Source: Novosphingobium indicum
Lineage (GTDB): Bacteria > Pseudomonadota > Alphaproteobacteria > Sphingomonadales > Sphingomonadaceae
DNA: 64,000 bases
NCBI RefSeq assembly: GCF_014645195.1
Contig: NZ_BMLK01000017.1
Span: 1-64,000, forward strand
Direction of reading: 5' to 3'
Position 1 is the stretch's first letter; every line of letters starts with the position of its first letter. The notes under the pieces are model-generated. The model ran no database searches, had not been told where the DNA came from, and saw only the letters and a list, made by a program, of their open reading frames with translations. Shown here in pieces: positions 23,551 to 34,188 of the stretch. Made by a program: the position numbers and the translations under genes.

Positions 23551-24318
23551 TCAGCGCCCTTTCCACTCCGGCTTGCGCTTTTCGGCAAAGGCGCGCGGGC
23601 CTTCCTGCGCATCTTCGGAATGATAGGTCAGCTCGTGCGCGGCACGGGCGGCCTGCAAGGCAGCGCTGCGGCCCATTTCGGTGGAAAGCATCACTGTCTC
23701 GCGCGCGGCCTTGACCGACAGCGGAGCGCCTTCCAGCACTTCCTTCGCCAGTTCGATCGCCGCATCAAGCGCACCGCCGGGTTCGGTCAGGCGATTGACC
23801 AGACCAATCTCATAGGCGCGCTCTGCCGTGATCGGCTTTCCGGTCAGCACGATCTCCATGAAGATGCGCTGCGGGATCATGTGGATCAGCGGCGCCGCCC
23901 AGGGCGAGCCGCGCCCGACCTTCACCTCGGTGATCGCGAACCTGGCGTTGGTGCTGGCGACGCACAGGTCGCAGGCCTGCGCGATCATCCAGCCGCCCGC
24001 CATGGCATGGCCATTGACCGCGGCGATGGTCGGCTTGCTCAGTTCGATGCTGTCGTAGGGCAGCGGGAACATGTCGCGCGGCGGCACTTTCATGCCCGTC
24101 TCGACCATCTCCTTGAGATCGCCGCCTGCGCAGAAGGCCTTTTCGCCGCTACCGGTAAGGATGGCGATGCGCATGGCATCGTCCGCCTCGAACCGCGTCC
24201 AGGCCTCGCGCAGCCCCTCGCGCACGTCGCGACTGAGGCAATTGCGCTGATCCGGGCGGTTGATGGTCAGAATCGCGATGCCATCTTCGCGGGCATCGTA
24301 AAGAACGGCATCGGTCAT
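23551..24318 (-). CDS. enoyl-CoA hydratase/isomerase family protein
   Basis: A 255-residue crotonase-fold enzyme that hydrates or isomerises an enoyl-CoA. Oxyanion-hole segments are KAFCAGGDLKEM (about residue 62) and NGHAMAGGWMIAQACDL (about 101). The usual catalytic Glu position around ITEVKVGRGSPWA carries Glu and Gly-rich residues consistent with a hydratase or related crotonase. Start at 24318 (MTDAVLYDARE); upstream frame lies in a repeat and is not coding. It is transcribed downstream of the CoA transferase at 24573 but separated by a 250-base palindromic element. Confidence 0.85.
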   Translation of the reverse strand: MTDAVLYDAREDGIAILTINRPDQRNCLSRDVREGLREAWTRFEADDAMRIAILTGSGEKAFCAGGDLKEMVETGMKVPPRDMFPLPYDSIELSKPTIAAVNGHAMAGGWMIAQACDLCVASTNARFAITEVKVGRGSPWAAPLIHMIPQRIFMEIVLTGKPITAERAYEIGLVNRLTEPGGALDAAIELAKEVLEGAPLSVKAARETVMLSTEMGRSAALQAARAAHELTYHSEDAQEGPRAFAEKRKPEWKGR

Positions 24319-24338
24319 GACAGAGATTCCATTTGGCT

Positions 24339-24566
<228 letters not shown>

Positions 24567-24572
24567 ATCATG

Positions 24573-25844
24573 TCAGAACCCACGTTTCGCGATTTCGTGG
24601 GCCGTGCGGTCCAGCTCTTCCCGGAAATCCGGGTGCGCAATAGCGACCAGCCGCCGAGCGCGTTCGGCCAGCGACTGGCCTTTCAGTTCTGCCGCGCCGA
24701 ATTCAGTAACGACGATATCGACCTCGGTGCGAGCGGAAGTGACGGGTCCGCCGAGCTTTGGCACGATCTTGCTCAGCGTTCCGCCCTTCGCGGTCGCGCC
24801 CAGCACCATCAGCGAAGCGCCGCCCGGCGAACGGGCACCGGCGCGCACGAAGTCCACCTGCCCGCCAGTGCCGCCGACATAGGAATTGCCCACCTGCTCG
24901 GCATTGACCTGCCCGGTGAGATCGACCTCGACCGCCGAGTTGATCGTGACGAGGCGCGAGAGCCGGCCCAGCACGCCCGCATCGTGGGTGTAGCTGGTCG
25001 GCGTCATGCGGATCGACGGGTTGTTGTGCGCCCAGTCGTAGAGCCGCTTCGTGCCGATCAGCGCGCCATTGATCGAAACGCCGGTGTCGATTTCCTTGCG
25101 CGCATTGGTGAGCACGCCGGCCTCGGCCAATTCGACGAGACCGTCACCCAGCATGCCCGAGTGGACGCCCAGATCCTTGCGGTCGTGCAGCAGGCGCAGG
25201 ATCGCATCAGGCACCGCGCCGACGCCGGTCTGGATCACCGAACCATCACCGATGTATTCCGCGCAGAATTTCGCGATGGCCTCGTCGGTCGGACCGATCT
25301 TGGCGGGCGCGACTTCCACCGGGGTGCGGGACACCGGCACTGCCACGTCGATAGCGCTGCCGGGGATCAGTTCGCCCTGCACGTAGGGCACCTGTTCGTT
25401 GACTTCGGCGATCACCACGCGGGCCTTTTCGACCGCCGCGCGCACATAGTCGGAGATCAGACCGCAGGAGTGATTGCCCTCGGCATCCGCCGGGCTCACC
25501 TGGATCATCGCCACGTCGCAGGGCATCACGCCCCATTCGATCAGCGGTGCGACCTGGCTGACGTGGACGGGGATCACGTCGAGCAGGTTGGCCTTGGTCA
25601 TCGAACGCAGCGCGCCGATCGCCCCCATGCTGGACAGGCGGAATGCGCTCGCGGTTTCCGGCGTGAACAGGCCGGAGAAGCTGGTGGCGATGAAGGCACC
25701 GAGATCGCCGATGGCCGGCCCTTGGGCAATCAGCGCTTCCACCAGCGTTGTGGGCTCGCCGCAGGCCTGGCCGAAGACCACGCGGTCCCCGGCCTTCAGG
25801 TACTTGGAGAGGTCCAATGCCTCTGGGATGACAATTTCGGTCAT
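24573..25844 (-). CDS. acetyl-CoA hydrolase/transferase family protein (Cat1-like)
   Basis: A 423-residue CoA transferase of the Cat1 / 4-hydroxybutyrate CoA-transferase family. Diagnostic segments are DRVVFGQACGEPTTL near the N-terminus, IQTGVGAVPDAIL (about residue 203), the acyl-site loop GGTGGQVDFVRAG (about 316) and the C-terminal VTEFGAAELKGQSLAERA. It probably exchanges CoA between acetyl-CoA and a carboxylic acid, activating or recycling pathway acids. A paralogue lies at 55918. It forms a minus-strand series with the CitE-like lyase and acyl-CoA dehydrogenase. Confidence 0.85.
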   Translation of the reverse strand: MTEIVIPEALDLSKYLKAGDRVVFGQACGEPTTLVEALIAQGPAIGDLGAFIATSFSGLFTPETASAFRLSSMGAIGALRSMTKANLLDVIPVHVSQVAPLIEWGVMPCDVAMIQVSPADAEGNHSCGLISDYVRAAVEKARVVIAEVNEQVPYVQGELIPGSAIDVAVPVSRTPVEVAPAKIGPTDEAIAKFCAEYIGDGSVIQTGVGAVPDAILRLLHDRKDLGVHSGMLGDGLVELAEAGVLTNARKEIDTGVSINGALIGTKRLYDWAHNNPSIRMTPTSYTHDAGVLGRLSRLVTINSAVEVDLTGQVNAEQVGNSYVGGTGGQVDFVRAGARSPGGASLMVLGATAKGGTLSKIVPKLGGPVTSARTEVDIVVTEFGAAELKGQSLAERARRLVAIAHPDFREELDRTAHEIAKRGF

Positions 25845-25871
25845 GTCCGGGTTACCTCTCGTTCCCCACTC

Positions 25872-25944
25872 CGCTCATCCTGAGCTTGTCGAAGGATAGA
25901 TCCACGCGCAGCGCCAGCGTCCTTCGACAGGCTCAGAACGAGCG
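25872..25944. repeat. CCTGAGCTTGTCGAAGG palindromic repeat, copy 1
   Basis: Arms CGCTCATCCTGAGCTTGTCG (25872-) and GACAGGCTCAGAACGAGCG (-25944) pair with a few mismatches around a 20-base centre. The same core recurs at 57263 and 60263 in this window. It lies between two minus-strand genes. Confidence 0.85.
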
Positions 25945-25958
25945 GGCGTGGATCGGCA

Positions 25959-26849
25959 TCACAGCTTGCCTGCCTGCTTCAGCAGTCGCTCGGCACGGGC
26001 CAGATAGGGCCGGTCGAGCATGCCACCTTTCCAGCCTATCGCACCCACGCCGGGGTTGGCGGCGAAGACATCGACGATTTCCTGCGCTTCGGCAATTTCG
26101 GCTTCGGTCGGCGTGAAGGCCGCATTGATCACGGGGATCTGCGCCGGGTGGATAGCCAGCATGCCGCCATAACCGTCGCGCCGAACCTTTTCGGCGCGGG
26201 CCTTGAGCGCATCGAGATCGCGGAAGTCAGCGCTGATCGTCTCGATCGCGGTCACGCCCGCCGTCGCCGCACCCAGCACGCAGAAGCTGCGGGCCATTTC
26301 ATACGTGAAGGAATAGGAGCCGTCCGGATTGCGGTTGGACGAGGCACCGATCGAATCCGCCAGATCCTCCGCGCCCCAGGTCAGCGCGACCACGCGCGGG
26401 CAGTCCTTGTAGTCGCCCCAGTGGAACATAGCTTCCGCGGTCTCGGTCATCAGCACGATCAGCGGGGTGGAGCCCTGCTCGATGCCATTGGCGACTTCGA
26501 AAGCCTCAAGATACTTGTCGAGCGTTTCCACGTCCTGCCGGCCATAGACCTTGGGCAGCATGATCCCCCCCGGATGCGCGGGCATCACCGCGGCCAGATC
26601 GAGCAGCGTGTAAGGCCCGTCGAGCGGGTTCACGCGCACCCACAGGCGGTGGCGCTGCTGAGGATTGGCCTTGATGAAATCGTGAACCATCGGGCGCGCG
26701 TTGGCTTTGTTGTCGATGGCCACCGCATCCTCGAGATCGATCAGGACGATATCGGCATCGCCCTCCATCGCCTTGGTCATCTTCTTTTCGCTGTCGCCCG
26801 GGGCAAAGAGCCAGGAGCGGGCGGAGATGGGTTCGTGCTGGACGGGCAT
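25959..26849 (-). CDS. CitE-like CoA ester lyase (HpcH/HpaI family)
   Basis: A 296-residue TIM-barrel lyase. The N-terminal RSWLFAPGDSEKKMTKA (residue 11), VLIDLEDAV (about 35), RVNPLDGP (about 70), LPKVYG (about 100) and a Glu in LMTETAEAMF (about 134) match the citrate lyase beta / malyl-CoA lyase family, with Mg2+ bound by acidic residues. It would cleave or form a C-C bond in a 3-hydroxyacyl-CoA such as malyl- or citramalyl-CoA. No citrate lyase alpha or gamma subunits are adjacent, so it is the stand-alone CoA-ester type. Its product could feed the adjacent CoA transferase. Confidence 0.83.
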   Translation of the reverse strand: MPVQHEPISARSWLFAPGDSEKKMTKAMEGDADIVLIDLEDAVAIDNKANARPMVHDFIKANPQQRHRLWVRVNPLDGPYTLLDLAAVMPAHPGGIMLPKVYGRQDVETLDKYLEAFEVANGIEQGSTPLIVLMTETAEAMFHWGDYKDCPRVVALTWGAEDLADSIGASSNRNPDGSYSFTYEMARSFCVLGAATAGVTAIETISADFRDLDALKARAEKVRRDGYGGMLAIHPAQIPVINAAFTPTEAEIAEAQEIVDVFAANPGVGAIGWKGGMLDRPYLARAERLLKQAGKL

Positions 26850-26865
26850 AGGATCCTCTCGATCC

Positions 26866-27048
26866 CTTCCCCCTCGATGGGGGAAGGATACGTAGCCTTG
26901 GCGACGCAGGAGCCTAGGCGAAGTTGGTTGGGGGTGATGCAGCCCCTGCGGCTTTACGCGGGAGGGCCATCACCCCCTCCCAACTACGGCTAGCGTCCGC
27001 TGCGCGGCCACAAGCCTTCGTATCCCTCCTCCATCGAGGGGGAGGAAG
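26866..27048. repeat. 183-base palindromic intergenic element
   Basis: Outer arms about 26866-26899 (CTTCCCCCTCGATGGGGGAA...) and 27012-27048 are inverse complements with few mismatches. Inner arms 26923-26944 and 26965-26984 (GTTGGTTGGGGGTGAT / ATCACCCCCTCCCAAC) pair as well. The entire spacer between the CitE-like and acyl-CoA dehydrogenase genes is this structure. It is non-coding and resembles a MITE or large REP-type element in architecture. Confidence 0.8.
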
Positions 27049-27054
27049 CTATGG

Positions 27055-28221
27055 TCAATACGACTTCGGCAGTTCCAGAACCCGCTCGGCGATGTAGTTC
27101 ATGATCTGGTGCGGGCTGACCGGGGCAATGCGCGGAATCATCACCTCGCGAAAATAGCGTTCGACATGATATTCCTGCGCATAGCCCATGCCGCCCATCG
27201 ACATGACCGCCGTCTGGCAGGCCTCGTATCCGGCCTCTGCCGCCAGGAACTTGGCGGCATTCGCCTCGGCGCCGCAGTCCTCGCCCTTGTCGAACAGCGT
27301 GGCGGCCTTGAGGACCATGAGGCTCGCCGCCTCCACCTGCATCCAGGCCTTGGCCAGCGGATGCTGGATGCCCTGGTTCTGGCCGATCGGGCGACCGAAC
27401 ACCACGCGTTCGCGGGCATAGCGGCTGGCTTTCTGAATCGCGACGCGGCCAAGGCCGGTCGCTTCGGCGCCGAGCAGCACGCGTTCGGGATTGAGGCCCT
27501 GCAGCAGGATCTTGAAGCCCTGCCCTTCCTCGCCGATGCGGTCTTCCTCGGGAATGAACAGGTCGGTGATGAACAGCATGTTCGAGCCGACAGCGTGGCG
27601 GCCCATCTTGGGGATCAGCTGGTGCTCGATGTGCTCACGGTCGAGCCTGGTATAGAACAGCGTCAGCCCTTCGGTCTTGCGCTTGACCTCTTCGAGCGGC
27701 GTAGTGCGCGCGATCAGCAGCATCTTGTCCGCCACATGCGCGTTGGTGATCCAGATCTTCTCGCCGTTCACCTTGTAACCGCCCGGCACCTTTTCGGCGC
27801 GGGTCTTGAGGCTGGTGGTGTCGAGACCGGTGTTAGGCTCGGTAACGGCAAAGCACATCTTCTCCTCACCCGACAGGATCGGCGGGATCATGCGCTGCTG
27901 CTGTTCCTCCGTGCCGAACAGGATCACCGGCTCCAGCCCGAAGACAGGCCCGTGGATCGCGGAAGCCGCGGTCATGCCGCCGCCGCTCTCGGCCACCGCC
28001 TGCATCATCACCGCCGCTTCGGTAATACCAAGCCCGGCACCGCCGACCGATTCGGGCATGGCCACGCCCAGCCATCCGGCCTCGGCCATCGTCATGTGGA
28101 ATTCGAACGGAAATTCGCCGCTGCGATCCTTTTCCAGCCAGTACTCGTCGGAGAACTGCGAGCAGTGCTTCAGGACAGCTTCGCGAATATTCTGCTGGTC
28201 TTCGTTGAGTGAGAAATCCAC
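27055..28221 (-). CDS. acyl-CoA dehydrogenase
   Basis: A 388-residue FAD enzyme introducing an alpha-beta double bond into an acyl-CoA. Domains are a helical N-terminus (1-120), the beta domain with CFAVTEPNTGLDTTSLKTRAE (about 128) and KIWITNAHVADKML (about 160), and the helical C-terminus with YARERVVFGRPIGQNQGIQHPLA (about 268) and the GGMGYAQEYHVERYFRE segment (about 345), which supplies the region of the catalytic base. It is divergent from the CaiB-type gene across about 200 bases. The natural chain type cannot be told from sequence. Confidence 0.9.
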   Translation of the reverse strand: MDFSLNEDQQNIREAVLKHCSQFSDEYWLEKDRSGEFPFEFHMTMAEAGWLGVAMPESVGGAGLGITEAAVMMQAVAESGGGMTAASAIHGPVFGLEPVILFGTEEQQQRMIPPILSGEEKMCFAVTEPNTGLDTTSLKTRAEKVPGGYKVNGEKIWITNAHVADKMLLIARTTPLEEVKRKTEGLTLFYTRLDREHIEHQLIPKMGRHAVGSNMLFITDLFIPEEDRIGEEGQGFKILLQGLNPERVLLGAEATGLGRVAIQKASRYARERVVFGRPIGQNQGIQHPLAKAWMQVEAASLMVLKAATLFDKGEDCGAEANAAKFLAAEAGYEACQTAVMSMGGMGYAQEYHVERYFREVMIPRIAPVSPHQIMNYIAERVLELPKSY

Positions 28222-28425: not shown

Positions 28426-29655
28426 ATGGCTGAAGAGGCACCATCCCCATCAACGGCAGACGCGTCCGCGCGTAGCGGACCGCTGGCCGGGATTCGCGTG
28501 ATCGACCTCACCAGTGTCGTATTCGGTCCCTATGCCACGCAGATCATGGCCGACATGGGTGCCGAGGTCATCAAGGTCGAGCCGCCCGCAGGCGACAACA
28601 CGCGCTGGATCACCGAAGGCCCGGTTCCGGGCATGGGCGGTATCTACGTCAACGTGAACCGCGGCAAGCGCGGGGTGATGCTGGACCTGCGGCAGGAGCA
28701 GGACAAGCAGACGCTGCAAAAGCTGATCGCCACCGCCGACGTCTTCATCCACTCGATGCGCGGCAGCGCGATCAGGAAGCTGGGCTTCGACTACGAGTCG
28801 GTCCGCGCGATCCGTCCGGACATCGTCTATACCAACTGCTACGGCTATTCCCGTCGTGGGCCCGAGAGCGACAAGCCCGCCTATGACGACACCATCCAGG
28901 CCGAATGCGGCATTCCCTATGTTCAGGGCCTGATGAACGGCGAGCCCGGCTACGTCGCCACGATCATGGCCGACAAGGTCGCCGGTCTCCATGCCCTCTA
29001 CGCCACTATGATGGCACTGTTCCACCGCGAGCGGACTGGTGAAGGCCAGGAAGTGGAAGTCACCATGTTCGAAGCCATGTCCTCGTTCATGCTGGTCGAA
29101 CACGCCAATGGTGCCATGTTCTCGCCGCCGACCACGCCCGCGCACTATCACCGCGCCGTCGAAAAGAACCGCCGCCCCTACAAGACCAAGGACGGCTACG
29201 TCGCCGCGCTCGTCTACAACGACAAGCACTGGAATGCCTTCATGGAGGCGATCCAGCCCGAATGGGCCATGGGTGAACGAGGCAACGAGTTCTCCACGCT
29301 GGAAAAACGCGCGAAGCAGATCGGCCGGGTCTATGGCCTGCTGGGCGAGACCTTCCTCACCCGGACGACGCAGGAATGGCTCGACACGCTGAAGGCGCTG
29401 CACATTCCCTGCGCCCCGCTGCGCTCGACCGACGACCTGTTCGACAACGAACACCTGAACGCGATCGGCTTCTTCGAGGAGGTCGAGACCGCACAGGGCC
29501 CCGTGCGCTTTCCTGGTGTGCCGACCTGGTTCTCGGCGACGCCGGGCAAGGTCCATGGCCCCTCCCCGATGCTGGGTGAGGACAACGCTGCCGTGCTGGC
29601 CGAACTGGAGGAGAACGCCGAGGCGATTGCTGCAGGCGCAGATGCCTCCAAGTGA
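28426..29655 (+). CDS. CaiB/BaiF-family CoA transferase
   Basis: A 409-residue class III CoA transferase. Family segments are GIRVIDLTSVVFGPYATQIMADMGAEVIKVEPP (about residues 21-55, cited in parts), NRGKRGVMLDL (about 78), and the candidate catalytic Asp in KPAYDDTIQAECG (about 155). The C-terminal part has VPTWFSATPG. The start at 28426 has CGGAGA upstream; an earlier ATG (28372) lacks a site. It should move CoA between acyl-CoA and a free acid. It is followed on the same strand by a thiamine-diphosphate enzyme, as in oxalate loci where formyl-CoA transferase and oxalyl-CoA decarboxylase are paired; the substrate here is unknown. Confidence 0.85.
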   Translation: MAEEAPSPSTADASARSGPLAGIRVIDLTSVVFGPYATQIMADMGAEVIKVEPPAGDNTRWITEGPVPGMGGIYVNVNRGKRGVMLDLRQEQDKQTLQKLIATADVFIHSMRGSAIRKLGFDYESVRAIRPDIVYTNCYGYSRRGPESDKPAYDDTIQAECGIPYVQGLMNGEPGYVATIMADKVAGLHALYATMMALFHRERTGEGQEVEVTMFEAMSSFMLVEHANGAMFSPPTTPAHYHRAVEKNRRPYKTKDGYVAALVYNDKHWNAFMEAIQPEWAMGERGNEFSTLEKRAKQIGRVYGLLGETFLTRTTQEWLDTLKALHIPCAPLRSTDDLFDNEHLNAIGFFEEVETAQGPVRFPGVPTWFSATPGKVHGPSPMLGEDNAAVLAELEENAEAIAAGADASK

Positions 29656-29843
29656 ACAGTAGTGTTGATTTGAACGGAAGAGAGCTTAGTCATTCCTGCA
29701 AAGCGCGTATCGCGATCACGCCTTGGGAGAGTGACTGAAATCCACCCGCACGGTCCACTTCGGCAACAGCATGTCCGCTGTCCGGAGCCGTGAACGAAAC
29801 TTACGCGATTTGAACCGGATCGAGATCGAAGAAAGGCAACCCT

Positions 29844-31619
29844 ATGTACGCAGACGATACCCCGGCAGACCCGACCGCCAAGCCCAAGGGCGTGCCCGTC
29901 TACAAGCGCATCCTCGACCTGTTCGAGGCTGAAGGCATCAAGACGCTTTTCGGCATTCCCGATCCCAACTTCGTGCACCTCTTCCTTGAGGCAGAGCGTC
30001 GCGGTTGGACCGTCGTTTCGCCGCACCACGAAGCGGCCGCCGGCTTCATGGCCGAAGCCGCCACGCGCATCACCGGCAAGCCCGCGCTCGCCATCGGTAC
30101 GCTTGGCCCGGGCATGGCGAACATGATGCCCGCCATTCAGTGCTGCAAGGTCGAGAACTCGCCGGTGATCTTCATGGGCGGCCAGCGCGCCCGCATCACC
30201 GAGCGCCGCGTGCGCCGTGGCCGCATCCAGTTCGTGCGCCAGGAACCGATGATCGAGGATTCGGTCAAGTATTCGGCTTCGATCGAATATGCCGACCAGA
30301 CCGACGAGATCATCCGCGAGGCGATCCGCGTTTCCATGTCCGGCACGCCCGGCCCGTCCTACATCGAATATCCGCACCACACTGTGCTGGAAGAGCTGGA
30401 CGTTCCCGAGGCCCTGCCGCCGCACCGCTATCGCCTGACCATGCAGGGTGCGGACGGTGATCGCGTGGCCGAGGCCGCCGAGATGATCGCCAAGGCAAAG
30501 AACCCGATCATCCTTGCCGGTCACGCCGTCTACACCAGCAAGTCCGGCGCGGCCGTCAAGGAGCTCGCACTCAAAATCGGCGCTCCGGTCATCCAGACCT
30601 CGGGCGGCACCGCGTTCATCGAGGGCATCGAAGACCGCACCTTCCCCTACGGCTTCTCGGAAGTGTCCATCGATGCCGTGGTCGAAAGCGACCTGTGCAT
30701 CGCGCTCGGCACCGAGCTGGGCGAGCCGAGCCACTACGGCCGCTGGCGCCACTGGGTGGACAACGAAGCCAACCGCAAGTGGATCTACGTCCAGCAGGAC
30801 CCGACCGCCATCGGCGTAAACCGTGAGATCGACTGCCCGCTGGTCGGCGATCTGCGCGCCGTCGTGCCGCAGCTCGTCCGTGCGCTTGAGGGCAAGACCC
30901 TTCCGGGCCACCCGCGCCTTGAGGAATTCATGAAAGGCGACGCCCAGCAGATCAAGGATCTCGATGAGGAATCGCAGACCCGCGACGACGGCACCGGCAA
31001 CGTGGCGATGAACACTGCCCGCTTCATCGTGGAAGCCACCAAGGCTTTCCCGAAGGACGGGATCATGATCCGCGATGGCGGCGCCACGGTGATCTACACC
31101 TGGACCTACAACATGGCGAAGCCGCACGATGTGATCTGGAACCAGAACTACGGCCACATCGGCACCGGCCTGCCCTACGCGACCGGCGCCATGCTCGCCG
31201 ACCAGGCCGCCACCGGCAAGGTGCGTCCCGGCATGCTTGTGACTTCGGACTCCTCGTTCCTGTTCCACATCGGTGAGCTGGAAGTCGCGGTTCGCAAGAA
31301 CCTGCCGCTGGTCTGCGTCGTCGGCGTCGACTTCCAGTGGGGCCTCGAGGTCGGCATCTACCGCTCGACCTTCGGCACCGGCACCAACGAGGCCGGCGTG
31401 CACTGGTCCGACAAGGTCCGCTTCGACAAGATCGCGGAAGGCTTCGGCGCGCACGGTGAATACATCACCGACGCTGCCGACATCGGCCCGGCCATCAAGA
31501 AGGCCTACGAACGCGGCGGTCCGACCGTGATCCACGTGAAGATCGACCCGGTCGCCAATGCCGAGGACAAGCCCCAGTACAGCGAATTCCGCACCTGGTA
31601 CGCCGAAGGCACGCAGTAA
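29844..31619 (+). CDS. thiamine-diphosphate-dependent enzyme (ALS / acyl-CoA lyase type)
   Basis: A 591-residue three-domain ThDP enzyme (PYR, central, PP). The catalytic Glu is conserved in SPHHEAAAGFMAEAA (Glu63). The central domain (about 205-340) has NPIILAGHAVYTS and FSEVSIDAVVESDLCIALG. In the ThDP/Mg site the usual GDG is SDS (SDSSFLFHIGELEVAV, about 467) and the usual NN pair is VD (VVGVDFQWG), so the two side-chain Mg2+ ligands would be Asp/Asp instead of Asp/Asn. It could be a decarboxylase, carboligase or 2-hydroxyacyl-CoA lyase. Between CaiB-type and aldehyde-dehydrogenase genes, a lyase releasing an aldehyde is attractive but unproved. Confidence 0.82.
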   Translation: MYADDTPADPTAKPKGVPVYKRILDLFEAEGIKTLFGIPDPNFVHLFLEAERRGWTVVSPHHEAAAGFMAEAATRITGKPALAIGTLGPGMANMMPAIQCCKVENSPVIFMGGQRARITERRVRRGRIQFVRQEPMIEDSVKYSASIEYADQTDEIIREAIRVSMSGTPGPSYIEYPHHTVLEELDVPEALPPHRYRLTMQGADGDRVAEAAEMIAKAKNPIILAGHAVYTSKSGAAVKELALKIGAPVIQTSGGTAFIEGIEDRTFPYGFSEVSIDAVVESDLCIALGTELGEPSHYGRWRHWVDNEANRKWIYVQQDPTAIGVNREIDCPLVGDLRAVVPQLVRALEGKTLPGHPRLEEFMKGDAQQIKDLDEESQTRDDGTGNVAMNTARFIVEATKAFPKDGIMIRDGGATVIYTWTYNMAKPHDVIWNQNYGHIGTGLPYATGAMLADQAATGKVRPGMLVTSDSSFLFHIGELEVAVRKNLPLVCVVGVDFQWGLEVGIYRSTFGTGTNEAGVHWSDKVRFDKIAEGFGAHGEYITDAADIGPAIKKAYERGGPTVIHVKIDPVANAEDKPQYSEFRTWYAEGTQ

Positions 31620-31697
31620 TGGCTGACGCCGGAAGCGATAGGTTCCGGTACAGCGGGAACCCGGCGCATCGCCGGGCGCTATCCCGATAGAATGACG

Positions 31698-31730
31698 ATG
31701 CCCGCACTGCCGTAAACGCAGTGCGGGCAT
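31698..31730. terminator. intercistronic hairpin
   Basis: Perfect 13-base arms ATGCCCGCACTGC and GCAGTGCGGGCAT around CGTAAAC, between the ThDP enzyme and the aldehyde dehydrogenase. The following bases (TGGCTTTG) are poor in T, so it may attenuate or protect the message rather than end it. Confidence 0.55.
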
Positions 31731-31768
31731 TGGCTTTGAAACCCCTGCAGAAATATTGGGAGCAGGTC

Positions 31769-33190
31769 ATGCGCAACTACACCCAGTTCTACATCGACGG
31801 CCAGTGGGTCGATCCCATCACGCCGCGGACCGCCGAAGTCATCAACCCAGCCACCGAGGAAGTCTCGGGCCAAATCTCGCTCGGCTCTCCGGCGGACGTG
31901 GACAAGGCCGTCGCGGCAGCCCGCAAGGCTTTCGCCAGCTACTCGCAAACCTCGGTCAAGGAACGGCTCGAACTTCTCCAGACCATCCAGACCGAGTACG
32001 CCAGGCGCGAGCAGGAGCTGGGCGAGGCGATCATGGAAGAGATGGGCGCGCCGCGTCCGCTCGCCTGCGGTTTCCACACCATGCTCGGCAGCGGGCACCT
32101 CAACACCGCGATCGAAGTGCTCAAGGAGTTCAAGTTCGAGGAAGAGCGCGGCGTCACCCTGATCCGCAAGGAACCGATCGGCGTGTGCGGCCTGATCACG
32201 CCGTGGAACTGGCCGATGAACCAGACCTGCGTGAAGATCTTCCCGGCGCTCGCCACGGGCTGCACAATGATCCTCAAGCCGCCGCAACTTGCGCCCTATT
32301 CGGCCCAGATCCTCGCGGAGATCCTGCACGATTCGGGCGTGCCGGCGGGCGTGTTCAACATGGTGCAGGGCAAGGGCAGCGAGATCGGCACCGCCATGTC
32401 CACGCACGAGGACATCGACATGATCTCCTTCACCGGCTCGGAGCCGGTGGGCGTGCAGATCCAGAAGGACGCCGCCGACACCGTCAAGCGCGTCGGGCTG
32501 GAGCTGGGCGGCAAGAGCCCGTGGATCGTCCTCGACGATGCCGCGCTGGCCGATCACGTGGCGGCTGCCACTGCCGGCATGATGGGCAACTCGGGCCAGA
32601 CCTGCTCGGCCGGTTCGCGCCTGCTGGTGCCCAATTCGCGCATGGACGAAGTGAAGAAGATCGCCACCGAAGCCGCAAACGGCGTCACCGTGGGCGATCC
32701 GAACGGCAACTTCGCGATGGGCCCGGTCGTCTCGAAGAGCCAGTACAACATCATCCAGCAGTACATCGAGAAGGGCCTTGAGGAAGGCGCCGAGCTGATC
32801 GCGGGCGGCGCGGGCCGTCCCGATGGCCTCGACAAGGGCTGGTACGTGAAACCGACGGTCTTCGTCGGCACCAACGACATGGTCATCTCGCGCGAGGAGA
32901 TCTTCGGCCCGGTCCTCGTGATCATCGGCTACGACGATCTCGACCACGCCGTGGAGATCGCCAACGATTCGATGTTCGGCCTGGGCGGCTATGTCTCGGG
33001 TCAGGACCTGGACGCCTGCCGCGAAATCTCGCGCAAGATGCGGACCGGCGCGATCTGGGTGAACGGCGGGTTCGATTTCCATGCGCCGTTCGGCGGCTAC
33101 AAGCGCTCGGGCAATGGCCGCGAGTGGGGCGACTACGGCTTCGAGGAATACCTCGAGACCAAGGCGATCATCGGCTGGAACCCCGCCTGA
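31769..33190 (+). CDS. NAD(P)-dependent aldehyde dehydrogenase
   Basis: A 473-residue aldehyde dehydrogenase. Visible are the active-site entry ITPWNWPMNQ (about residue 146), FTGSEPVG (about 222), the general base Glu in ELGGKSPW (about 245), the nucleophile Cys in GNSGQTCSAG (about 279) and EEIFGPVL (about 378). It oxidises an aldehyde to its acid. The start at 31769 has GGGAGCAGG just upstream; an in-frame GTG or ATG at 31721 would start inside the hairpin described above. It follows the ThDP enzyme and ends at a strong terminator, closing this unit. Confidence 0.9.
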   Translation: MRNYTQFYIDGQWVDPITPRTAEVINPATEEVSGQISLGSPADVDKAVAAARKAFASYSQTSVKERLELLQTIQTEYARREQELGEAIMEEMGAPRPLACGFHTMLGSGHLNTAIEVLKEFKFEEERGVTLIRKEPIGVCGLITPWNWPMNQTCVKIFPALATGCTMILKPPQLAPYSAQILAEILHDSGVPAGVFNMVQGKGSEIGTAMSTHEDIDMISFTGSEPVGVQIQKDAADTVKRVGLELGGKSPWIVLDDAALADHVAAATAGMMGNSGQTCSAGSRLLVPNSRMDEVKKIATEAANGVTVGDPNGNFAMGPVVSKSQYNIIQQYIEKGLEEGAELIAGGAGRPDGLDKGWYVKPTVFVGTNDMVISREEIFGPVLVIIGYDDLDHAVEIANDSMFGLGGYVSGQDLDACREISRKMRTGAIWVNGGFDFHAPFGGYKRSGNGREWGDYGFEEYLETKAIIGWNPA

Positions 33191-33213
33191 CGGTTCGACC
33201 GATTGCATGAAGC

Positions 33214-33250
33214 GGCCCGGATGTCCCACGACATCCGGGCCGTTTTCGTT
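33214..33250 (+). terminator. Rho-independent terminator after the aldehyde dehydrogenase
   Basis: A perfect 12-base stem GGCCCGGATGTC / GACATCCGGGCC with CCAC loop, followed by GTTTTCGTTT. It ends the CaiB / ThDP-enzyme / aldehyde-dehydrogenase unit and separates it from the cupin-like gene. Confidence 0.85.
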
Positions 33251-33315
33251 TGGGGAGCCAACCGGAAGTTAACCGATGGCCGCTACACGCCAGGGCGAAA
33301 CGAAAGGATCGCGCC

Positions 33316-34188
33316 ATGGACGGCACCGTATTCGACAGTTCGGCCAAGACGGCTTTCGCAGGGGCCTATCCGGGGCATACCTGCAAGCTGACCCATCTCC
33401 TTGCCGACGATCCCCTGCTGACACTCGATGCCCTCGCAGACCTTGCGGGAGCGCTCCCGGCGGACAGCATCGAATACAATCCCGGCTCACTGCCCATCGG
33501 CATCGCCCCGGAAGACGTCCCCTCAAGCGAACTCGGCGTCGTCGAGACGATCCGCAACATTGGCGAATCCGGATCGTGGGTGGTCCTAAAGCGCATCGAG
33601 CAGATCGAGGCCTACGGCGCGCTGCTCGAACGCATTCTCGGGGAACTGACCGACGTGGTGGTCCCGCGCACCGGCGAAATGCTGCAACACGAGGGCTTTA
33701 TCTTCGTATCCTCGCCGGGGGCCGTCACGCCGTTCCATTTCGACCCCGAGCACAACATCCTCCTTCAGCTCAACGGCTCAAAGACGATGACGCTCTTTTC
33801 GGTTGAGGACGAAGCGATCAGCCCTCCGGGCGTGCACGAAGCCTTTCACATGGGCGAGCACCACCGCAACCTGACGTACCGCGACGACTTTGCCGAGCGC
33901 GGCACCGCGATTGCCATCGGGCCGGGTGAAGCGATCCATGTTCCGGTCAAGTCACCGCACTGGGTGCAGGTGGGCGCGGAGCCCTCGATCTCGCTGTCGA
34001 TTACCTGGCGCTCTGAGTGGAGCTATGCCGAGGCCGATGCCCGCGCCTTCAACCGGGCGATGCGCAAGCTTGGCCTCAAGCCTTCCAGCCCGCGCCCTTT
34101 CCCTTCGAGCAACAAGGGCAAGGCGCTGGCGTGGCGGGCCATCAGCCGGGCCAATGCAATGCTGAAACCGGACTCCGCTGCGACCTGA
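33316..34188 (+). CDS. cupin-like / JmjC-type protein
   Basis: A 290-residue protein with a JmjC/cupin_8-like core. Metal-binding residues are probable: His141-x-Asp143 in TPFHFDPEHN and a distal His (208 or 215) in GPGEAIHVPVKSPHWV. Proteins of this kind are Fe(II)/2-oxoglutarate dioxygenases or inactive relatives; sphingomonads often carry copies near transport loci. The start at 33316 has GAAAGGA upstream. It is separated from the aldehyde dehydrogenase by a terminator and is convergent with the winged-helix gene, whose stop lies 2 bases beyond. Hydroxylation of an acyl-CoA or of a protein are both open. Confidence 0.68.
   Translation: MDGTVFDSSAKTAFAGAYPGHTCKLTHLLADDPLLTLDALADLAGALPADSIEYNPGSLPIGIAPEDVPSSELGVVETIRNIGESGSWVVLKRIEQIEAYGALLERILGELTDVVVPRTGEMLQHEGFIFVSSPGAVTPFHFDPEHNILLQLNGSKTMTLFSVEDEAISPPGVHEAFHMGEHHRNLTYRDDFAERGTAIAIGPGEAIHVPVKSPHWVQVGAEPSISLSITWRSEWSYAEADARAFNRAMRKLGLKPSSPRPFPSSNKGKALAWRAISRANAMLKPDSAAT

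Follow-up and report, generated by a model that had tools for sequence, protein, structure and literature searches.

Closest Described Systems

Pairing of a thiamine diphosphate (ThDP) enzyme with a coenzyme A (CoA) transferase or an aldehyde dehydrogenase (ALDH) is known from oxalate degradation (formyl-CoA transferase and oxalyl-CoA decarboxylase, OXC), from phytanate alpha-oxidation (2-oxoglutarate-dependent hydroxylase, HACL1, and ALDH), and from the gene cluster of an Actinomycetospora 2-hydroxyacyl-CoA lyase (HACL), which joins lyase, CoA ligase, and ALDH genes (available excerpt of PMC7176365). Similar genes are found in a 64,000-nucleotide stretch of Novosphingobium indicum DNA (contig NZ_BMLK01000017.1, positions 1 to 64,000; hereafter, the window). 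There, a CaiB/BaiF family III CoA transferase (P0001; 28426..29655; PF02515 CoA_transf_3, 374 bits), a ThDP enzyme (P0002; 29844..31619; three TPP_enzyme domains, 82-93 bits), and its partner ALDH (31769..33190; Aldedh, 497 bits) are encoded in this order on the plus strand. These domain matches agree with the gene order given by a first-pass annotation, which had proposed a 2-hydroxyacyl-CoA cleavage route with oxalate and phytanate degradation as precedents. The three genes are members of a gene set that is conserved across distant bacteria and that appears to serve an undescribed breakdown pathway. No description of this gene set was found in a literature search of open-licence PMC papers.

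The close proximity of a class III CoA transferase gene and a ThDP enzyme gene resembles the oxalate pair. However, both proteins score far under the family cut-offs: P0001 reaches 203 vs. 442 and 190 vs. 504 bits with the formyl-CoA transferase (Frc) models, and P0002 reaches 152 vs. 739 bits with TIGR03254 and 175 vs. 557 bits with PRK09259, both for OXC. Unlike P0002, the aligned OXC sequences carry Tyr at the place of E502, Glu (4/5) at the place of Q129, and Arg at two CoA-binding places. The succession of ThDP enzyme and ALDH recalls phytanate alpha-oxidation, and Rhodococcus sp. USK13 and Mycobacterium branderi have a TauD-family gene close by. In contrast to phytanate alpha-oxidation, no conserved 2-oxoglutarate-dependent hydroxylase partner was seen among the best 80 of the 384 relatives of P0002 found in a GTDB genome scan, and the cupin of the window was found near the ThDP gene in only two of these 80 loci. 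Thus, family scores and the lack of such a partner do not support membership in an oxalate or phytanate system. In the itaconate system RipABC, a CoA transferase of the acetyl-CoA hydrolase/transferase type shares an arm with a CitE-type lyase, as on the minus strand of the window. Unlike in RipABC, the CitE-type lyase here (25959..26849) is under the cut-off of its best NCBIfam match, RipC (157 vs. 375 bits), an enoyl-CoA hydratase/isomerase (ECH) family hydratase and an acyl-CoA dehydrogenase (ACAD) are present, and there is an extra ThDP-ALDH-CaiB arm.

Placement of the ThDP Enzyme

P0002 matches 51 NCBIfam models and falls under the cut-off of all 25 that were listed. The highest score was obtained with the acetolactate synthase (ALS) model PRK08322 (228 bits vs. 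cut-off 509), and the models for Xsc (TIGR03457, 188 vs. 676 bits) and HACL (NF058623, 149 vs. 600 bits) give lower ones. Two trees were built, one of 42 rows that took 13 of the 80 family loci (an earlier alignment took 14) and one of 40 rows that omits three long-branch rows (L017, L013, and L128). In both trees, the ThDP family and its 34-46% paralogues form one clade (support 100/100 and 100), separate from ALS and Xsc and also from OXC, HACL, and IlvX. The latter three group apart from this clade with support of 96/96 (42 rows) and 93 (40 rows), with a program warning that long branches meet and with a weak deepest branch in the 40-row tree. The trees were made of sequences other than cyclohexane-1,2-dione hydrolase (CDH), benzaldehyde lyase, and pyruvate decarboxylase (PDC). 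By sequence, the ThDP enzyme is placed in a clade of its own, so far unnamed. The oxalate degradation, ALS, and sulfonate-enzyme readings of this gene are rejected in view of scores, residues, and trees. The first-pass annotation was right to keep the last two apart from it, and the tight clustering with acetolactate or sulfopyruvate-type enzymes that would have spoken against that annotation did not occur.

Additional members and relatives of the clade were observed. A ThDP paralogue of 44-46% identity that keeps E502 is found in another context in the same N. indicum genome (L031:9134-10918, G000 contig 2) and in a relative (L032:9915-11600). In Sphingobium sufflavum (L056:7914-11737), two enzymes of the clade, with 79% and 46% identity to P0002, are encoded side by side and divergently. 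At L035 (G045 contig 37), two tandem ThDP relatives of 35% identity flank a partial ALDH match (30% identity, 73% coverage), and the ThDP-ALDH pairing may therefore reach beyond the clade.

Active Site and CoA Contacts

Residues were counted in all 80 family loci and P0002 (81 sequences). E63, Q129, D469, and E502 are invariant in 81/81. The rows that represent NF058623 are barely over its cut-off (L135-L140, 610-616 vs. 600 bits), and the three that were aligned have Glu at the place of AcHACL Q128; for this reason, the solved sequence of the actinobacterial lyase AcHACL was added as an anchor. AcHACL E493 aligns with E502 and AcHACL Q128 with Q129; thus, all 81 sequences have the Glu and Gln of short-chain HACLs, with Glu where ALS has Val or Ile. 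According to the available excerpt of PMC13327070 (Table 1), Glu at the E493 place goes with on-pathway protonation of the carbanion. In the same excerpt, Gln at the Q128 place is given, within that class, for HACLs, benzaldehyde lyase, CDH, sulfoacetaldehyde acetyltransferase, and carboxyethylarginine synthase, while this place is His or Leu in 2-oxo acid decarboxylases and Glu in OXC.

P0002 shares with AcHACL the ThDP fold, the Glu and Gln pair, and the helix after the Mg loop, at about 22-25% identity to lyases of this type. An AlphaFold model of P0002 built on 71 sequences has a pLDDT of 90.8 (66 in an earlier model) and places E502 on a helix of residues 500-510, with a mean pLDDT of 84 over residues 501-510. 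Seven residues hold CoA in AcHACL, as listed in the available excerpt of PMC8760513: Q255, R273, S274, R362, R417, D561, and K564. In the alignment, none of the seven is kept in P0002, which has S253, S275, I276, L373, W420, and two gaps instead; its C-terminal tail is also different. The R273 and R417 places are Arg in AcHACL, in 3/3 HACL rows, and in 5/5 OXC rows, whereas in all 81 family rows the former is Ser, Thr, or Ala and the latter is Trp. The alignment at both places is anchored gap-free by conserved Asp residues, D283 (eight residues on) and D411 (nine before). Since the Glu and Gln pair is present but the CoA arginines are missing, P0002 is read as a putative aldehyde-releasing lyase of a free substrate.

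Conservation of the Gene Set

The counts of ALDH and CaiB neighbors and of ORF clusters over the 80 loci given below are lower bounds, since they depend on a simple open reading frame (ORF) caller and author-set identity thresholds, and the spread of the ThDP family is under-sampled because the loci are the best 80 of 384 relatives. The hosts of these 80 loci include Novosphingobium, Sphingobium, Sphingomonas, Haliea and Halioglobus bins, a Steroidobacter bin, mycobacteria (67-69% identity), and others. Among them, Novosphingobium malaysiense (L037) has the nearest relative, at 99% identity.

In 59 of the 72 loci having room, the ThDP gene is followed by an ALDH gene (identity 55% or more) that begins no more than 2 kb downstream, and this pairing spans sphingomonads to mycobacteria. 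CaiB is directly upstream of the ThDP gene in 26/76 loci, including the mycobacterial L109, L112, and L114-L116. In total, ten orthologous loci of the same genus were sampled (L021-L029 and L036), eight of them with enough flank. A seven-gene island, in which ECH, CoA transferase, CitE, and ACAD are divergent from CaiB, ThDP, and ALDH, was found in six of these eight (L021-L025 and L027); L026 and L028 have ThDP-ALDH, and the remaining island genes are not there. The genes flanking the island in the window recur beside L021 only; therefore, the island stands in different surroundings elsewhere. The conserved unit is thus larger than the plus-strand cassette and divergent, taking in minus-strand positions 23551-28221 and excluding the cupin-like gene.

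Co-occurrence was analyzed in 37 genomes of the genus, including that of N. indicum, with identity thresholds of at least 66% for ThDP, 65% for CaiB, and 66% for CitE. ThDP orthologues were found in 12/37 genomes and CaiB in 11/37, all inside these 12 (Fisher p 1.4e-8; since the genomes are related, these are not independent events). The sole ThDP genome without a counted CaiB, G017, is 75% complete. The counted CaiB copies of G018 and G026 have one internal stop each, and CaiB homologues of only 50-52% in G009, G021, and G028 were left uncounted. CitE was found in 12/37 genomes, nine with ThDP and three without (p 2.8e-4). Among eight further ThDP-holding genomes (L061, L065, L078, L086, L094, L098, L109, and L111), seven have CaiB. 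Where CaiB lies outside the ThDP flanks, it is still divergent from CitE and within about 3 kb of it (G010, G013, and G501-G505). Conserved synteny and co-occurrence thus bear out the earlier claim that these genes belong together, and the loss of synteny that would speak against it did not occur. At L016 (G031 contig 36), a ThDP fragment (57% identity, residues 393-586) with an internal stop, possibly a decaying copy, was observed together with a CitE kept at 87%.

Other genes recur around the ThDP gene. Across the best 80 loci, ORF clusters, each named from one representative, correspond to a flavoprotein resembling Baeyer-Villiger monooxygenase (BVMO; 49), an SMP-30/gluconolactonase-like protein (32), a Rieske oxygenase alpha subunit (31), a short-chain dehydrogenase/reductase (SDR; 30), an AMP ligase (21), a MaoC-type dehydratase (20), and an IclR regulator (18). 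Gene order was drawn for 19 loci, and several show BVMO, Rieske, ThDP, ALDH, and SMP-30 in this order, followed by IclR, AMP ligase, and MaoC (L061, L065, L086, L094, and L098). The closest solved chain to the BVMO-like flavoprotein is 5mq6 (355 bits), with phenylacetone and steroid monooxygenases next. On annotated plasmids of Rhodococcus sp. USK13, M. branderi, and Sphingobium sp. RAC03, the ThDP gene is accompanied by Rieske, FAD-oxidoreductase, and SDR genes. On the Rhodococcus and M. branderi plasmids, an annotated ALDH adjoins the ThDP gene and a CoA transferase lies within the cluster. The M. branderi CoA transferase shares 66% identity with P0001, and comparison of the Rhodococcus flavoprotein and SMP-30 protein with the sphingomonad representatives gives 50 and 51% identity, respectively.

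All seven island genomes examined have a Rieske orthologue (75-78%) at a separate locus and a BVMO of 56-59%, the G032 copy of which has internal stops. In L024 and L027, BVMO and SDR genes adjoin the island at its ECH end; in L023, they are found about 5 kb past its ALDH end. The N. indicum genome has a BVMO - SDR - SMP-30 - Rieske locus of 46-58% identity (G000 contig 27, L152:10984-18816), possibly the upper part of the same route.

Organization of the Locus

The divergent arm on the minus strand begins with the ACAD gene (27055..28221), identified by domain search and conserved beside CaiB. Its product has an APVSPH stretch, presumably at the place of the EGT motif of many relatives, and a Glu in LNPER that we take to be as in isovaleryl-CoA-type enzymes; both are kept in 22/22 sequences. 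Beyond the HpcH/HpaI-CitE type lyase gene lies that of the acetyl-CoA hydrolase/transferase family CoA transferase (24573..25844), assigned by domain search and by its closest solved chain, which is deposited as 4-hydroxybutyrate CoA-transferase (323 bits). The arm ends with the ECH family protein (23551..24318), its start being set at 24318; the longer ORF, on which ECH_1 scores 179 bits, extends to 24447. On the plus strand, the ALDH stays below the cut-off of its best NCBIfam match (399 vs. 775 bits), and superfamily membership is supported by the Aldedh domain and by the Cys of GQxC and the Glu of ELGGKS, presumably catalytic, which are invariant in 61/61 sequences. The best NCBIfam match of P0001 is a SucGlut transferase model (210 bits vs. 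cut-off 750).

A terminator-like hairpin with a T-rich tail (33210..33252, plus strand) ends the right arm. It has a perfect, G+C-rich stem of 13 bp (33213-33242), followed by TTTTCGTTTG, the T-rich tail reaching 33252. The hairpin is missing from the output of the automatic terminator scan, in our reading because the scan lets the stem extend into the T tract. The hairpin read earlier as a strong terminator is present, and it sets apart the cupin-like gene beyond it (33316-34188; Cupin_8 24.3 bits, cut-off 27.4), whose product has an HFD...H motif of the kind that we take to be typical of metal-binding cupins. The two loci with a cupin near the ThDP gene are those of N. malaysiense (L037) and Novosphingobium beihaiensis (L038), and the next nearest relatives (L039 and L040) have the island without it. 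Thus, the cupin is not conserved with the ThDP gene set, and the role once suggested for it is not supported.

The intergenic gaps are 188 bases between CaiB and ThDP and 149 bases between ThDP and ALDH, and the latter contains a stable hairpin without a T-rich tail (31696..31732, plus strand, -30.3 kcal/mol); hence, a single transcript is not assured. Stable folding of the ThDP-ALDH gap (window positions 31620-31768) was also observed in the nine relatives inspected (L037-L040, L042, L046, L051, L052, and L058). The palindromes are strong and differ in sequence between species, and several of them look like repeated extragenic palindromes (CCTCCCC...GGGGAGG).

Proposed Route and Alternatives

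Gene content, synteny, co-occurrence, clade, and residues, as described above, are observations; the reactions, their order, and the substrate proposed here are read from residues and neighbors. The best explanation of the whole locus, held tentatively and at a little under even confidence, is a CoA-independent C-C lyase acting on a free alpha-hydroxyketone and followed by ALDH, CaiB, and short beta-oxidation. Rieske oxygenase, BVMO, and SDR, as members of the gene set in relatives, would carry out the upstream steps, and the Rieske and SDR partners could form the alpha-ketol. The ThDP enzyme would most likely split it by retro-acyloin cleavage, in which E502 protonates the carbanion on ThDP and an aldehyde is thereby released. 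The partner ALDH would convert the aldehyde to an acid, CaiB would load CoA onto the acid, and the divergent arm (ACAD, ECH, CitE-type lyase, and second CoA transferase) would perform desaturation, hydration, and cleavage, the probable products being an acyl-CoA and a 2-oxo acid. Judged by their family names, ALDH, CaiB, ACAD, ECH, and CitE would together make up a conventional descending route. Compared with 2-hydroxyacyl-CoA cleavage, the release of an aldehyde by cleavage of a free alpha-hydroxyketone (or 2-oxo acid) fits better because E502 and Q129 are kept and none of the seven CoA contacts is.

Several observations weigh against this explanation. Sulfoacetaldehyde acetyltransferase has the same Glu and Gln pair, and acetohydroxyacid synthase and pyruvate oxidase also have the Gln (available excerpt of PMC13327070). 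OXC rows keep R273, S274, and R417. Both IlvX rows, a type assumed in the same excerpt to act as HACLs, retain R273 and have Gly for R417, and one of them also retains S274; contact loss alone therefore does not exclude CoA, which could be bound through residues other than those of AcHACL. G43 and H44 of AcHACL are P41 and N42 in P0002, and the substrate end of the pocket thus differs from that of known lyases. The predicted fold compares about equally well with HACL, OXC, benzaldehyde lyase, and ALS (Z 38-41), HKA synthase being near as well, and does not decide among them. Thirteen of the 72 loci, including some of Haliea and Halioglobus, are without an ALDH right downstream of the ThDP gene. 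Finally, Mycobacterium bohemicum (L109) has CaiB directly upstream of the ThDP gene and no CitE match at 1e-60 in its genome; thus, CaiB could feed the ThDP enzyme.

The original proposal we consider rather unlikely: CaiB would produce a 2-hydroxyacyl-CoA, the donor perhaps being formyl-CoA in the manner of oxalate degradation, the ThDP enzyme would cleave it to formyl-CoA and an aldehyde, and ALDH would oxidize the latter. In its favor, the Glu and Gln pair is shared with AcHACL and mycobacterial IlvX-type HACL (PMC13327070, excerpt), and the CoA transferase is of class III, like formyl-CoA transferase, its best solved chain being deposited under that name (209 bits). The position of CaiB directly upstream of the ThDP gene in 26/76 loci and the Actinomycetospora cluster are in line with it as well. 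Against it stand the replacement of R273 and R417 throughout the family, the absence of every listed contact in P0002, and the trees, in which HACL, OXC, and IlvX lie apart from this clade.

The ThDP enzyme may instead be a 2-oxo acid decarboxylase that passes an aldehyde to ALDH, the acid then going to CaiB and the beta-oxidation arm. We regard this as unlikely. No CoA is needed, and an ALDH partner and the downstream order fit; E502 stands at the PDC-type Glu place (E473), an equivalence that combines the alignment to AcHACL E493 with Table 1 of PMC13327070 (excerpt). By the same route through AcHACL Q128, the place of H114 is Q129 in 81/81, where pyruvate-, indolepyruvate-, and phenylpyruvate-type decarboxylases of that table carry His. 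Moreover, no gene forming a 2-oxo acid was recognized among the named recurrent neighbors.

Cleavage of a cyclic 1,2-diketone, as by CDH, to an aldehyde acid for ALDH is improbable. CDH is among the sequence matches (1e-34), but P0002 is no closer to it than to other matches. Relatives offer an alicyclic context (BVMO), and the dicarboxylate arising from an aldehyde acid would suit a CitE-type lyase; however, CDH has Asn (N484) at the E502 place (PMC13327070, excerpt). Very improbable is an ALS-like carboligase unrelated to its neighbors, for which the top NCBIfam score speaks, while that score is less than half of its cut-off, Glu replaces Val/Ile at the key place, the clade is separate, and the gene co-occurs with CaiB.

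Returning to cleavage of a free alpha-hydroxyketone, a wider proposal may be put forward, though it is rather doubtful in its full extent. The CoA-independent ThDP lyase would found a widespread undescribed pathway, in which Rieske, BVMO, and SDR enzymes convert a terpenoid- or steroid-like alicyclic compound to an alpha-ketol, the ThDP enzyme breaks a C-C bond of this ketol, and ALDH, CaiB, and short beta-oxidation with a CitE-type lyase finish the fragment. The set would have been transferred between Proteobacteria and Actinobacteria, in part by plasmids. A link of the gene set to abscisic acid was a guess that received no support in the literature search.

Significance

If true, the proposed route would be a new catabolic use of ThDP chemistry, in which C-C cleavage of a free substrate feeds an ALDH. 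The enzyme, whose label on plasmids of one mycobacterium, one rhodococcus, and one sphingomonad is at present no more than "thiamine pyrophosphate-binding protein", could then serve biocatalysis as a new carboligase or lyase. ThDP-ALDH with Rieske and BVMO, and CaiB with ACAD-CitE, may serve as markers for finding the substrate.

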